NCBI GenBank assembly: GCA_951394045.1
Contig: OX595987.1
Coordinates: forward strand, 248,001 to 312,000
Origin: Nitzschia sp. DOCU1
Lineage: Eukaryota; Bacillariophyta; Bacillariophyceae; Bacillariales; Bacillariaceae
Length of the DNA stretch: 64,000 bases
Direction of reading: 5' to 3'
Shown here: piece after piece, positions 21,005 through 27,435 of the stretch
Layout of the letters: every line of letters begins with the position of its first letter
Position numbering within the stretch: position 1 is the stretch's first letter
Made by a program: the position numbers and the translations under genes
Notes under the pieces: generated by a model
The model's input: only the letters and a program-made list of their open reading frames with translations
Databases searched by the model: none
What the model was told of the DNA's origin: nothing

Positions 21005-21964
21005 TTACAACTCAACTTCGACTGGTGTCGATGAAGATGGCGTTTCTCCATACGTTTCTTCCAGGGATGGCTCTGTAAGGAAGATAGAGCACATTTTCTC
21101 CGTTACCTCGGCGGCGTCCATGTCCTCATCGGCAGTGCTGGCTGGCGCGAGACCGGAAGATGGGCCGCGAAAGTCAAGAGGTTCGAAGTCGCACTGCTCA
21201 AAGGAGTTACTCAACAATTTGGCTTTAGCTTCAACCCTGGCAATCTCTTTCTGGATGTCCCAGATGAGCTGCTCAGTCCCACCGTTCGTTAACAGCGACT
21301 TGGGTGCGCGGGGTGCGGCGGCAAAGTAGCTGCCGCCCGTTCGTCCAAGCAACGAAGAGGCCGGAAACAAGTCGAAGCTTGCATTCTTTGTCGAAGGTCT
21401 GTTATGGTTGTCGAACAACTTCTTCTTTGTGGAAAACCCGGACAACTTGGATCGCAGAAGGGTCGGCGCTGATGTGGTAGCGCGCGCACAATCTTGCTCG
21501 TCATTGTTAATCGCGAGGGCTTGGTTTAAAAACGATCTTGATTTGCTCGTTGACTGATGATCCCTGAGGTTGTCTGCAGAACTCCACTTCTTGATTCTTC
21601 GCATGTTTTGGCAAAGATCACGGCGACCCCTGACGAACAGGTCGTGGGTGCACCTGCCTTTGTGGGGGCCTCTGATTTCGCGGCGGAAACCGTAGTTTTG
21701 TAATTGGCGAAGGAAAGACTTCCACTTGCTCTGGTTGAAACCACAAGTCTGAAGGATAGGGAGCATGGCCTCGGGATCATGAATTTGGAACCCATTCCCT
21801 TCAGGAAGCCAGCCTACGACGTGCTGGTATCCATCTCTTTCTGCCTGGTCGAGCATATCGTGCAGACGAATGGGAAACTGTGGGGGCGCCGGGGGCAGTG
21901 CAGTTGAAGCGACTGCCGAAATGACATTGTCGGTAGACAAAGGATATTCTTGTTGATAAATCAT
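21005..21964 (-). CDS. Heat-shock-factor-type transcription factor C
   Basis: A single-exon protein of 319 aa. The HSF DNA-binding domain is near the N-terminus (~28-125): FPIRLHDMLDQAERDG, VGWLPEGNGFQIHD, and the recognition helix SFLRQLQNYGFRR. It differs clearly from factors A and B, lacking their GTGVRARSN block and the DDAVFG tail. A Ser/Lys-rich linker is followed by a helix (~225-250, LIWDIQKEIARVEAKAK) that could oligomerise and by an acidic end. Nuclear DNA-binding role by family. Convergent with the LPAT gene, whose stop lies only 85 nt away. Confidence 0.9.
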   Translation of the reverse strand: MIYQQEYPLSTDNVISAVASTALPPAPPQFPIRLHDMLDQAERDGYQHVVGWLPEGNGFQIHDPEAMLPILQTCGFNQSKWKSFLRQLQNYGFRREIRGPHKGRCTHDLFVRGRRDLCQNMRRIKKWSSADNLRDHQSTSKSRSFLNQALAINNDEQDCARATTSAPTLLRSKLSGFSTKKKLFDNHNRPSTKNASFDLFPASSLLGRTGGSYFAAAPRAPKSLLTNGGTEQLIWDIQKEIARVEAKAKLLSNSFEQCDFEPLDFRGPSSGLAPASTADEDMDAAEVTEKMCSIFLTEPSLEETYGETPSSSTPVEVEL

Positions 21965-23229
21965 TTTATCGTGTTTTTGTGTTTTAAGTCAATAGCGTGT
22001 TGCGAAATTGTAAGACTTGGATTTGAAAGTCATGGGCCCACGCGAAACGAAGAAAAGAAGAATTGCGTTGTTGGCGCCTTGCGCTTCCGTGGTGGCGGAG
22101 GAACCCTCGCGAAACCGGGTGCAAGATCTCCCGAGGGGCATACTTTGCATTCTTGCAGTTCAACAAAATACAATGGCTCTAGGAAAAATCATACATCAAT
22201 CAAAAGCTTTAAGTTTCTCCGTCAATCTCATAACTCAGCCCCCTTGGGGACTTTAGTTTTCTCCGACAACATAGTTAGTAGTATGTAACATAGGACTTTT
22301 CATTAGTATTTTGGTGGTATCGACCAACCCACCGCGCTTCGCCACCATCGGAATGATGCAACATTAAAGCCACCTTTTCTCCGAACTATGAGGATTCGTT
22401 TTGAAGTCTGGACCGAGATTTAATAAAATTAATGGTTAAACGGACGACTGATTGATACCGACCGTAATTCACGGAAAGATGTAAACGGTTGCGTAGCCGT
22501 CGTCTGATTGACGAACCGGTATTTCGGCTTCGGCTTGGCTCCGACCGTCCGTCTACTGCCGGTAGGTGGCGAATCTCTAGCTACCGGTAGCGAGGTAGTT
22601 CTAACCTCAAGGCCTACATAGCTGGATAGTGCGTATGGTAACAGTATTCTGCGCTGCTTTAACTACCGGTAGAGACTATTCGAGACCATCAGGACCTGAT
22701 GATTGCAAAACTTTTCGTGCGTCATTGTCGGTAGGCGAACGGCGTGGCATCATCACCAGCAGCGATAGCAGTATCAAATCTCAGCTCCCAATAAGTATGA
22801 CGTGACCTCATTCATATGAAACCAATTGCACGCGACAGCGTGGGCGAAGAGGAGCCGGATTATCGTAAATTTTGTTGGTTGACGTGGTGAATCAAGATAG
22901 GAGTAACTTTGCGTTCATGACAACGTCATTTGACCTGGTCGTGCCTCCGCTGGCCCGAAGACGGCAAAGTTAATTTGTCACAGGTACTACTAGAGTCGTG
23001 ATGAGTGATAGCAACCTTGTTGTAGGCGACCCCATTGCAATATCGGACCTTGACTCGAGCTTCGGGGAAATTCGCATCCTGAGTAAACAAGACACAAAGT
23101 CTTAAGAGGACTATTGACAAACAAACGCATCTTCTGAAAGAATTATACGTCTGCGTGATCGTGGTAATATCTTCTCTCACATGGTGAAAACATCCTCGGC
23201 TTGGGATGTGATGATGGTGACCCCCCTCG
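21965..23229. other. Intergenic with two TACCGGTA palindromes
   Basis: No gene recognised. CTACCGGTAG occurs at 22581-22590 and TACCGGTA at 22664-22671, only 75 nt apart. The region is the promoter side of heat-shock factor C and the 3' side of the selenoprotein gene. Confidence 0.5.
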
Positions 23230-23285
23230 AAAAGACGTCAGCAGCGCTGTGTTGGTGGTTACATCAGCCATGTCATTTTGTTCTC
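23230..23285 (-). promoter_or_regulatory. Candidate SECIS element of the selenoprotein mRNA
   Basis: About 120 nt after the selenoprotein stop, the minus strand reads ATGAC, then 11 nt, then AA at the start of an 8-nt apical loop (AACCACCA), then a returning strand ending TGAC. The opposed TGAC/TGAC could form the tandem G.A quartet. The AA lies one helical turn away, as in a form 1 SECIS. The stem is imperfect (two G-U pairs, one A-C mismatch, small bulges), so this needs folding software to confirm. Confidence 0.42.
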
Positions 23286-23396
23286 CCAGCAAGGCCAACT
23301 TGAATGCCGGCCTCCCCTCGGGCTATACAAGAATCAACGTGGCATCATTAAAATCCATGCAAACGCAGACTAATCCTGACCGACCGCAGCGAGGCG

Positions 23397-24362
23397 CTAG
23401 AACTCGCTTCTGGCTCCATCCATCGTGTCGTCTCCAGTCCCCTCCGCCGCAGCCGTGACTCCGTATGTTAGCTCATGAGAACTATCATCAACAACATTTC
23501 GCGTATCTTGTCCATGCCCCGACGACCCAGTTCGATCTGGCTGCATCATCTCCTCTTGCATATGCTCATTTCGACCTTCTTTCACGCTCATGCCAATGTG
23601 CCAGTCATCACGATCTTCATCGATGGAGGACTTGGTTCCACTTGATTGCTGTGCTCGTCGTGAGTCCATTTCATCCAAGTAAAGTTTCCGTGGAGCTTCT
23701 CTCTCTTCCAGGTTTTTCTCGAGATTGTAATATTCAGAATCTACATTTCCTTTTCGAACGCCCTGCTGATTATGAAATTCCTGTCGTTGTCGCTGTTCTG
23801 CTCGTTTCAGTGGTAGGTCGGCAAACTTCATGTGACGCTGCCGATCGTGTTCGCCCTTGCTTCGAGTGGCACCCCCTTTCTCCCGCTGTTCTTCCAGTTC
23901 TCCTCTTCTTTGGATCCGTTCGTCCACAAGCTTACGGTTGCTCCAGACTTGTTCGCGCCGGTTCCGAATCGTCTCAACTTCATCGTCGGATTTACGAACA
24001 AATCCTTTTTCTTGCATGAGGGCATGGATTTCTTTGACAGTCTCATACTTCCGCAAATCAATGCGTTCTGTTTCCTCGCCGAACAAATACAAAGTCATTA
24101 CGGGTGGCTTGCCATGAACCCAATCCACATTGACGTTTTCGTAGTATTCCACCTCCCCGCCCCTTAGAAACTGCTTGGCGGCGGGGAAGCTTTTCAGCTG
24201 TCACCCCGAACAGGATTCAATTACAGCCGAGATGGCAGGGAACTTCTTCTTGGGGGCGTCGACAATCTCGACGAACCCGGGGGCCAAACCGATGGCGTCT
24301 TGCTGAGCGATGGAGGGACACGTGGCAGCCAAGACTACGAACGCCGAAAGCCAAGCGATCAT
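23397..24362 (-). CDS. Selenoprotein M/Sep15-like protein with in-frame UGA (Sec54)
   Basis: Reading TGA 24203-24201 as selenocysteine gives one exon of 321 aa. The start at 24362 is fixed by an in-frame TGA four codons upstream. Residues 1-19 are a signal peptide ending PSIA. The Sep15/SelM thioredoxin-like domain spans ~30-124, with the redox motif CSGU (Cys51, Sec54) in the context VIESCSGUQLKSFPAAKQF, and continues through EYYENVNVDWVHGKPPV to VKEIHALMQEKGF. Coding continues strongly after the UGA, which supports recoding over termination. A charged ~197-aa C-terminal tail, absent from animal SelM, follows. Family role: ER thiol-disulfide chemistry. The tail has no ER-retention signal (ends ARSEF). 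ORF callers that stop at TGA lose the redox centre and signal peptide. Confidence 0.88.
24201..24203 (-). other. UGA selenocysteine codon
   Basis: In-frame TGA at codon 54 of the SelM-like gene, at the exact position of Sec in the CxxU motif of animal SelM. Coding with family similarity continues on both sides without a splice site that would remove it. Confidence 0.85.
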
Positions 24363-25293: not shown

Positions 25294-26439
25294 ATGAGCG
25301 ATAAAGGAGACGAAGAAGATAACTATAACGCCGACACGGCTGGCAGTTCGGCAGTATCGGCATCATCTGCCGGTGCAGACGGCGACGATGAGCCACTCGA
25401 GGGCGAAGGCGAGGAAGATGTTGCCAAGCGGCGAAGCAAAAATCGTGTCAATGCTCGTCGCAGCCGTGAACGAAAACGCCTCATGTTAGATACCCTTCAG
25501 CAGGAGCACTGGCAGCTCCATCAAGAAAACAAGCGAGTTAAGCTGGACAACGACAAGCTCAAGGAAGCGATTGAAACGATCAAGTCTCTTCAGGGCGTGG
25601 GCAACTTGCCCACCAATGGCGGCGGACCGCCGATGCAAAATCTTGGCAATATGTTCCAAAATACGAACAACAACAACTCCACCAATAATGATATCTCTGG
25701 AGGTGGCCTGGGGATCAGCAACAACTCTGCTGGTGCTAACAGCGTTGCTAGTGCTCCTCAACCGAGCACTGGGAATCCTCTGATGGACCTGTTAGCGAAA
25801 CAGATGATGATGCAGCAGCAGCAACAACAACAAGCTGCGCCGCCAGCGGGGAACAACATCAACCTGGCGCAGCTCGCCATGGGAGGGGGTTTAGGAGCGC
25901 TAGGAGGCGTGAATCCTGTGGTAACTCAATTGCTTCTTGCGAATGCTTTGCAGCAAGGAGGAAGTGGGGGTGGATTCAACCCGGCAGCTGCCGTCCTTTT
26001 GAATCCAAACCTGCTGTCATTGATGCAACAGCAGCAGCAGCAGGGCCAGCCGCTTTCAAATAAAAGTGCCGGGCCGCAGCAACAGGCTCCTATGAGTACT
26101 GGGCCGGCCGCTGACTCCAAGCCACCGATTCCTGGCCCCGCAAATGGAAACAACGGGAACAACCAAGACTTTGATGGCTTCAACAATAACAATGCGGGGG
26201 CCAATTCAGCGGCAGGAATACCGCCGAATCTTGCGGGTCTACTACAGTCGCTTGGAGGCGGGAGTAACCATCCCATGCTAAATCAGGCAACTCTGGCCAG
26301 CGCCGGTCCAGCCGGGTTGGCTTCCCTACTCCACGCCCTTGGAAGCCAGCAACAGCAAAACGCGCCTAATATGATGCAGTCGGGCAACAACAACAATGGT
26401 AACCCTTCTGCTTCATCTGGGAACGGGCCGTCAATATGA
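25294..26439 (+). CDS. bZIP transcription factor with Gln/Asn-rich tail
   Basis: A single-exon protein of 381 aa. The N-terminus is acidic (~1-44). The basic region is AKRRSKNRVNARRSRERKR (~44-62), with the invariant Asn and Arg of the NxxAxxSR signature. The leucine zipper follows with heptad positions L68, L75, V82, L89 and I96. Residues 110-381 are low complexity: Asn-rich, a short polyGln run, Gly- and Pro-rich blocks, likely a disordered activation domain. A nuclear dimeric DNA-binding protein; the basic region is compatible with TGACGT-type sites such as those seen in this window, but specificity is inferred. No LOV domain is present, so it is not an aureochrome. Confidence 0.92.
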   Translation: MSDKGDEEDNYNADTAGSSAVSASSAGADGDDEPLEGEGEEDVAKRRSKNRVNARRSRERKRLMLDTLQQEHWQLHQENKRVKLDNDKLKEAIETIKSLQGVGNLPTNGGGPPMQNLGNMFQNTNNNNSTNNDISGGGLGISNNSAGANSVASAPQPSTGNPLMDLLAKQMMMQQQQQQQAAPPAGNNINLAQLAMGGGLGALGGVNPVVTQLLLANALQQGGSGGGFNPAAAVLLNPNLLSLMQQQQQQGQPLSNKSAGPQQQAPMSTGPAADSKPPIPGPANGNNGNNQDFDGFNNNNAGANSAAGIPPNLAGLLQSLGGGSNHPMLNQATLASAGPAGLASLLHALGSQQQQNAPNMMQSGNNNNGNPSASSGNGPSI

Positions 26440-26895: not shown

Positions 26896-27435
26896 TTATG
26901 CAACTTTTTGTACCTCGGCTTTAGACCCAGTTTTCTTTGCCGATAGCATCATGCCTTCAAAGTCGTCCTTCGCTGCTAGGTAAAGTATTCCGAGTGGAAA
27001 GAGTAGATATGGTAGGTAAACACTCGTCGTGGCCACGATTTGTGTTGTTGTCATTTTCGGGCTCGTCCAAAACGCCGCTAGAATCGGTACCAGAGTTGTG
27101 GCGACATGAGATCCGTAAATGATACAAGACGTTTGAAACCAGCGCGGGTAGTGTGCCGATCCCTGGTAAGGCTGGGTCATTTGATGTAATGCCACTAGGA
27201 AAAAGGGCATCTGCAACACGATTTCGCCTGCCACAAGACTTTGAAACCACGGCGGACTGGGGTATTGCATAAGGACGTCTCCAAATAATGCACAATACCA
27301 GGCCACCAAATCTCGAAGCCGTTGAGGATAGAGCGTCGAAAGGACAGCCTGGGCGTCCACCAATGCTGTAATGACGACATGCGAGCCGAAAAAGATCAAG
27401 TAAGCTGTCTTCCAGCCGCCTTGCAAAACGTTCAT
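26896..27435 (-). CDS. TMEM97/sigma-2 receptor homologue (EXPERA domain)
   Basis: A single-exon protein of 179 aa with four transmembrane helices, the usual length for TMEM97. Diagnostic features include YPQRLRDLVAWYCALFGD (compare the YP..FRNLLKWY region of animal TMEM97), the PPWFQSL loop, GEIVLQMPFFLVA with its acidic residue in helix 2, IIYGSHVATTLVPIL in helix 3, and VYLPYLLFPLGIL in helix 4. EXPERA proteins bind sterol-like ligands at the ER or endolysosome membrane; TMEM97 affects cholesterol trafficking through NPC1. The C-terminus is Lys-rich, as in ER residents. The sterol role in this organism is inferred from family. Confidence 0.88.
   Translation of the reverse strand: MNVLQGGWKTAYLIFFGSHVVITALVDAQAVLSTLYPQRLRDLVAWYCALFGDVLMQYPSPPWFQSLVAGEIVLQMPFFLVALHQMTQPYQGSAHYPRWFQTSCIIYGSHVATTLVPILAAFWTSPKMTTTQIVATTSVYLPYLLFPLGILYLAAKDDFEGMMLSAKKTGSKAEVQKVA

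Follow-up and report, generated by a model that had tools for sequence, protein, structure and literature searches.

The stretch of DNA analysed here (the window) spans 64,000 nucleotides of contig OX595987.1 of the diatom Nitzschia sp. DOCU1, C3:248001-312000 in an assembly of 52.1 Mb and 63 contigs. On its minus strand lies a gene with an in-frame UGA codon, which almost certainly encodes a genuine selenoprotein M (SelM), a small selenocysteine (Sec; U) redox protein. The features of this gene, including a putative selenocysteine insertion sequence (SECIS), are the following:

23397..24362, minus strand: coding sequence of SelM (321 aa, U54), ending in the TAG stop codon at 23399-23397
24303..24362, minus strand: probable signal peptide, residues 1-20 (ending ...PSIA, followed by QQ), judged by eye on the translation
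24201..24212, minus strand: CSGU redox motif, residues 51-54, with the Sec codon TGA at 24203-24201, from the translation and the CGLC of a Cys paralogue
24000..24227, minus strand: Sep15_SelM thioredoxin-like domain, residues 46-121, from Pfam, the genome profile search and fold comparison
23640..23987, minus strand: charged tail, residues 126-241, with helices predicted at 126-162 and 170-241 at moderate to low confidence
23400..23639, minus strand: tail end, residues 242-321, predicted mostly disordered; open frame only, with no close alignment to any relative found
23224..23290, minus strand: SECIS-like hairpin, with AATGAC at 23277-23272 and a 3' TGAC at 23240-23237, 120 nucleotides past the stop codon

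Translated with TGA as U, the minus strand from 24362 to 23397 gives 321 residues with a single in-frame TGA, that of codon 54, and the frame is otherwise open up to the TAG. Four codons 5' of the ATG at 24362 there is another in-frame TGA. Third-position GC is 0.72 upstream of the codon 54 TGA and 0.49 downstream of it. A code-11 listing of open reading frames (ORFs) contains only 23397-24152 (251 aa), which starts downstream of the UGA, as the original prediction had anticipated for standard annotation; the metagenome entries P0006 and P0008 are shortened likewise.

The Pfam model Sep15_SelM matches the product over its full length (profile positions 1-75 of 75, E 3e-14, 53.3 bits against a cut-off of 26), and 8 residues of this match lie upstream of the UGA. 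Searched against the six-frame genome, the model exceeds its cut-off at a single place, the SelM gene, with one TGA inside, and it does so in none of 14 control genomes. With phmmer, the product matches mouse SelM (2a2p, 2.1e-8) and fly Sep15 (2a4h, 8e-4), and fold comparison gives a thioredoxin-like fold of the SelM type. The motif C51-S-G-U54 is the CxxU of SelM, not the CxU of Sep15. The translation and the Pfam match thus bear out the earlier claim of a CSGU whose U is the TGA at 24201-24203, with SelM-like coding on both sides. The SelM/Sep15 label given at that time holds for the family, and is narrowed to SelM because of the CxxU motif and the better SelM match.

The same genome encodes a Cys paralogue, P0002 (253 aa; match at C2:4355585-4355995), which is 29% identical to the SelM product over 140 columns and has CGLC aligned to CSGU. 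Its tail is long, charged and Cys-free, and is kept in its relatives P0003 (98%), P0004 (61%) and P0005 (58%). A core-domain profile search returned P0005 again, together with P0006, P0007 and P0008. The column of U54 holds Cys in P0002, P0003 and P0004, and W in P0007, which reads CSGW there; P0005, P0006 and P0008 start downstream of it. P0006 is 96% identical to the SelM product and starts at the same valine codon after the UGA; it stops at about residue 199 of the SelM product, where its 893-base contig may cut it. Over 80 residues, P0008 and P0007 share 94% identity. The similarity 5' of the UGA extends to P0007 (...ITGKIVSCSG vs ...AISAVIESCSG; P0007 ...ITGKIVSCSGWQLNRFP), whose W we read as a UGA rendered as Trp by the gene caller of the source. 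Judging from these alignments, the in-frame UGA sits at a Sec/Cys column, which the original prediction had proposed to look for in relatives; a lack of similarity upstream of the UGA, named at the same time as grounds for rejection, was not what P0007 displayed.

The genome also contains the machinery for Sec incorporation, namely tRNA-Sec, SepSecS, the eEFSec domain and selenophosphate synthetase (SPS). For tRNA-Sec, five matches score over the Rfam cut-off (at 74.3-72.3 bits), all of them read as TCA by ARAGORN, and another five fall below it; 5 of the 14 control genomes have tRNA-Sec over the cut-off. SepSecS is present here and in three controls, domain III of eukaryotic SelB (the eEFSec domain) here and in no control, and selD (SPS) at two places, one with a TGA inside, and over the cut-off in two controls. 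A TGA is also found inside matches to other families: GSHPx (3 of 4), Rdx (1 of 4), PMSR (4 of 15), AhpC-TSA (3 of 15) and AhpC-TSA_2 (2 of 8, both also with a TAA). When these frames are read, the catalytic residue is U in three GPx, one SelT-like protein and two MsrA; beyond the Pfam label, these names are our own reading. The silicic acid transporter family has 18 matches in the genome, consistent with a diatom, and was matched under its cut-off in one control genome. As to arrangement, four of the tRNA-Sec genes, which are usually single-copy, stand in tandem (L004, L005, L006 and L008; C5:639526-640069), and the fifth (L007) is at C6:887673-887758.

The 3' flanks of these six genes (SelT-like, three GPx, two MsrA) served as the comparison set for the SECIS. 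In the printed flanks, AATGAC occurs no more than about 180 nucleotides past the stop in all seven genes, SelM included. A SECIS rule was applied that asks for an AUGA core with a TGA partner and for a helix II with 8 or more pairs, whose start and end are within 3 nucleotides of the core. Five of the six and SelM pass it, always at an AATGAC; P0002 has no SECIS-like hairpin under this rule within 600 nucleotides past its stop. Among the 24 ATGA hairpins that the two strands of the window (128,000 bases) contain at E<=-6, two have AATGAC: the SelM element (-12.3) and one within the SelM coding sequence (-10.1). A further 51 loci, some of which overlap, were covered on both strands (350,802 bases) and have five AATGAC hairpins. 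Two of these lie 26 and 73 nucleotides past the stops of control loci L030, which has a GUFW MsrA motif in the upstream frame, and L032, which has a U-containing SelU-like frame. Five further loci gave hairpins past the stops in selD locus L066 and in AhpC-TSA_2 loci L033 and L035, and none past the stop in L047 or in the second selD locus, L065. Among 3000 dinucleotide shuffles of the SelM 300-nucleotide flank, 10 had any AATGAC hairpin and 5 equalled the real one. From the comparison genes, control loci and shuffles, the AATGAC hairpin is a putative SECIS of the 3' untranslated region (3'-UTR).

Some of these loci have features of their own. L066 (C10) carries three similar AATGAC SECIS-like hairpins, at 2731, 2954 and 3255, which are 160, 383 and 684 nucleotides past the stop of a selenophosphate synthetase gene with an in-frame TGA; among the papers listed by a literature search on multiple SECIS elements in SPS2, none was on such an arrangement. 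L033 and L035 hold nearly identical AhpC-TSA_2 genes with an in-frame TGA; the two are on C3 and the small contig C38, and perhaps represent a duplicate or the other haplotype.

Several observations weigh against a functional SelM gene. The comparison gene GPx L019 has the AATGAC and fails the SECIS rule for want of a hairpin, three of the five control-locus hairpins (L023, L027 and L049) look false, and without the AATGAC restriction 95 of the 3000 shuffles do equally well. No SECIS-type Rfam family matched the SelM element, nor any of the six comparison loci. The Cys paralogues fall below the Pfam cut-off (P0002, 19.5 bits vs 26), and the W of P0007 may be encoded by a genuine TGG. The TGA is enclosed by three GT-AG pairs that preserve the frame (coding-sequence offsets 24-165, 24-192 and 138-192), so that it could in principle be excised. 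Together with the 251-aa ORF downstream, these pairs would fit a TGA that is a true stop or intronic, the expressed protein starting past it or being spliced around it. We regard this as highly improbable: use of the GT-AG pairs is disfavoured because the CSG residues would be lost with the excised stretch and because a SECIS-like element lies 3' of the gene, and P0007 keeps the similarity on the upstream side. The SelM helix II is also the weakest among the passing candidates (-7.5 vs -8.0 to -24.6 kcal/mol), as might be expected of a decayed selenoprotein gene in which the UGA persists and recoding has been lost, the more so as the Cys paralogue could substitute for it. Apart from this codon, however, nothing interrupts the frame over its 321 aa, the domain match is full-length, and P0006 retains the remainder of the domain along with the tail as far as about residue 199, which leaves decay a very slim chance.

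Taken as a whole, the locus is best explained, with high confidence, as an intact diatom SelM gene in which UGA 54 is read as Sec via a 3' SECIS. Domain, fold, motif, machinery, SECIS-like element and Sec/Cys column all support this reading, and the original call of a selenoprotein M stands on the same evidence. The 3'-UTR SECIS would direct the ribosome to read codon 54 as Sec with the tRNA-Sec and eEFSec of the genome, the signal peptide would take the product into the secretory pathway, probably to the endoplasmic reticulum (ER), and the CSGU centre in its thioredoxin-like domain would work as a thiol/disulfide oxidoreductase.

Residues 122-321 are 40% D/E/K/R, with a net charge of -8 and no Cys; P0006 aligns with them to about residue 199, and no Pfam family matches this extra part. 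The coiled, highly charged tail of the original prediction is borne out in part: the composition is charged, and the tail is predicted partly helical, with about 80 residues predicted disordered. It had also been taken as an addition of this protein, and is not peculiar to it, since long tails are found in P0002, its relatives and P0008. The proposal of an ER tether found no support: the C-terminus has no KDEL-like end, the last part is predicted disordered and no partner is known. Most likely, the tail of about 197 aa (probable helices, then a disordered end) positions the redox domain by way of luminal protein contacts. It is conceivable, if rather doubtful, that diatoms have a distinct long-tailed SelM subclass in Sec and Cys forms, whose helical tails change fast and bring the redox domain to differing partners in the lumen, for example in the maturation of silica or cell-surface proteins.

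The neighbours in the window are, by Pfam, an HSF-type DNA-binding protein (21005-21964, minus), a bZIP protein (25294-26439, plus) and an EXPERA/EBP-domain protein (26896-27435, minus); three other neighbouring ORFs have no Pfam match. The gene is a clear example of a protein split at its UGA by code-11 gene finding, and relatives occur in protein collections in shortened form, and once with W at the codon. Wide misannotation is described for vertebrate selenoprotein genes in parts of PMC12822975. The AATGAC-based SECIS rule flagged two more selenoprotein genes among the control loci, which were drawn from selenoprotein-containing families. With a Sec/Cys pair of long-tailed paralogues in one diatom, what selenium and the tail each contribute becomes directly testable.

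Among known systems, mouse SELENOM (2a2p) is the best sequence and fold match, sharing the CxxU/C centre and the thioredoxin-like domain. Mouse SELENOM has an N-terminal signal. The diatom protein differs in length (321 aa vs a 129-residue 2a2p chain, the match ending at 116) and in its C-terminus without KDEL. As far as described in passages of PMC10668967, SELENOM combines CGGU with a thioredoxin-like fold, where the diatom protein has CSGU, and Sep15 (SELENOF), of which fly 2a4h belongs to the same thioredoxin-like subfamily and is the weaker match, has CGU, i.e., CxU. P0002 shares the SelM-like domain and the long charged Cys-free tail, and differs in its CGLC and in lacking the hairpin. 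By the published description, in part of Lobanov et al. (2007, PMC2375036), the diatom Thalassiosira pseudonana has two SelM selenoproteins, likewise Sec-containing. Sections of Jiang et al. (2020, PMC7539508) give 20-44 selenoprotein genes for diatoms and report algal SELENOM fusions, to pVHL in Aureococcus and ShKT in E. huxleyi, which share the SelM domain with extra sequence but have named domains where the extra part here has no Pfam family. Because diatom SelMs and algal SELENOM fusions are already published, the gene adds one member to the known SelM family, and its long charged tail is its one unusual feature.
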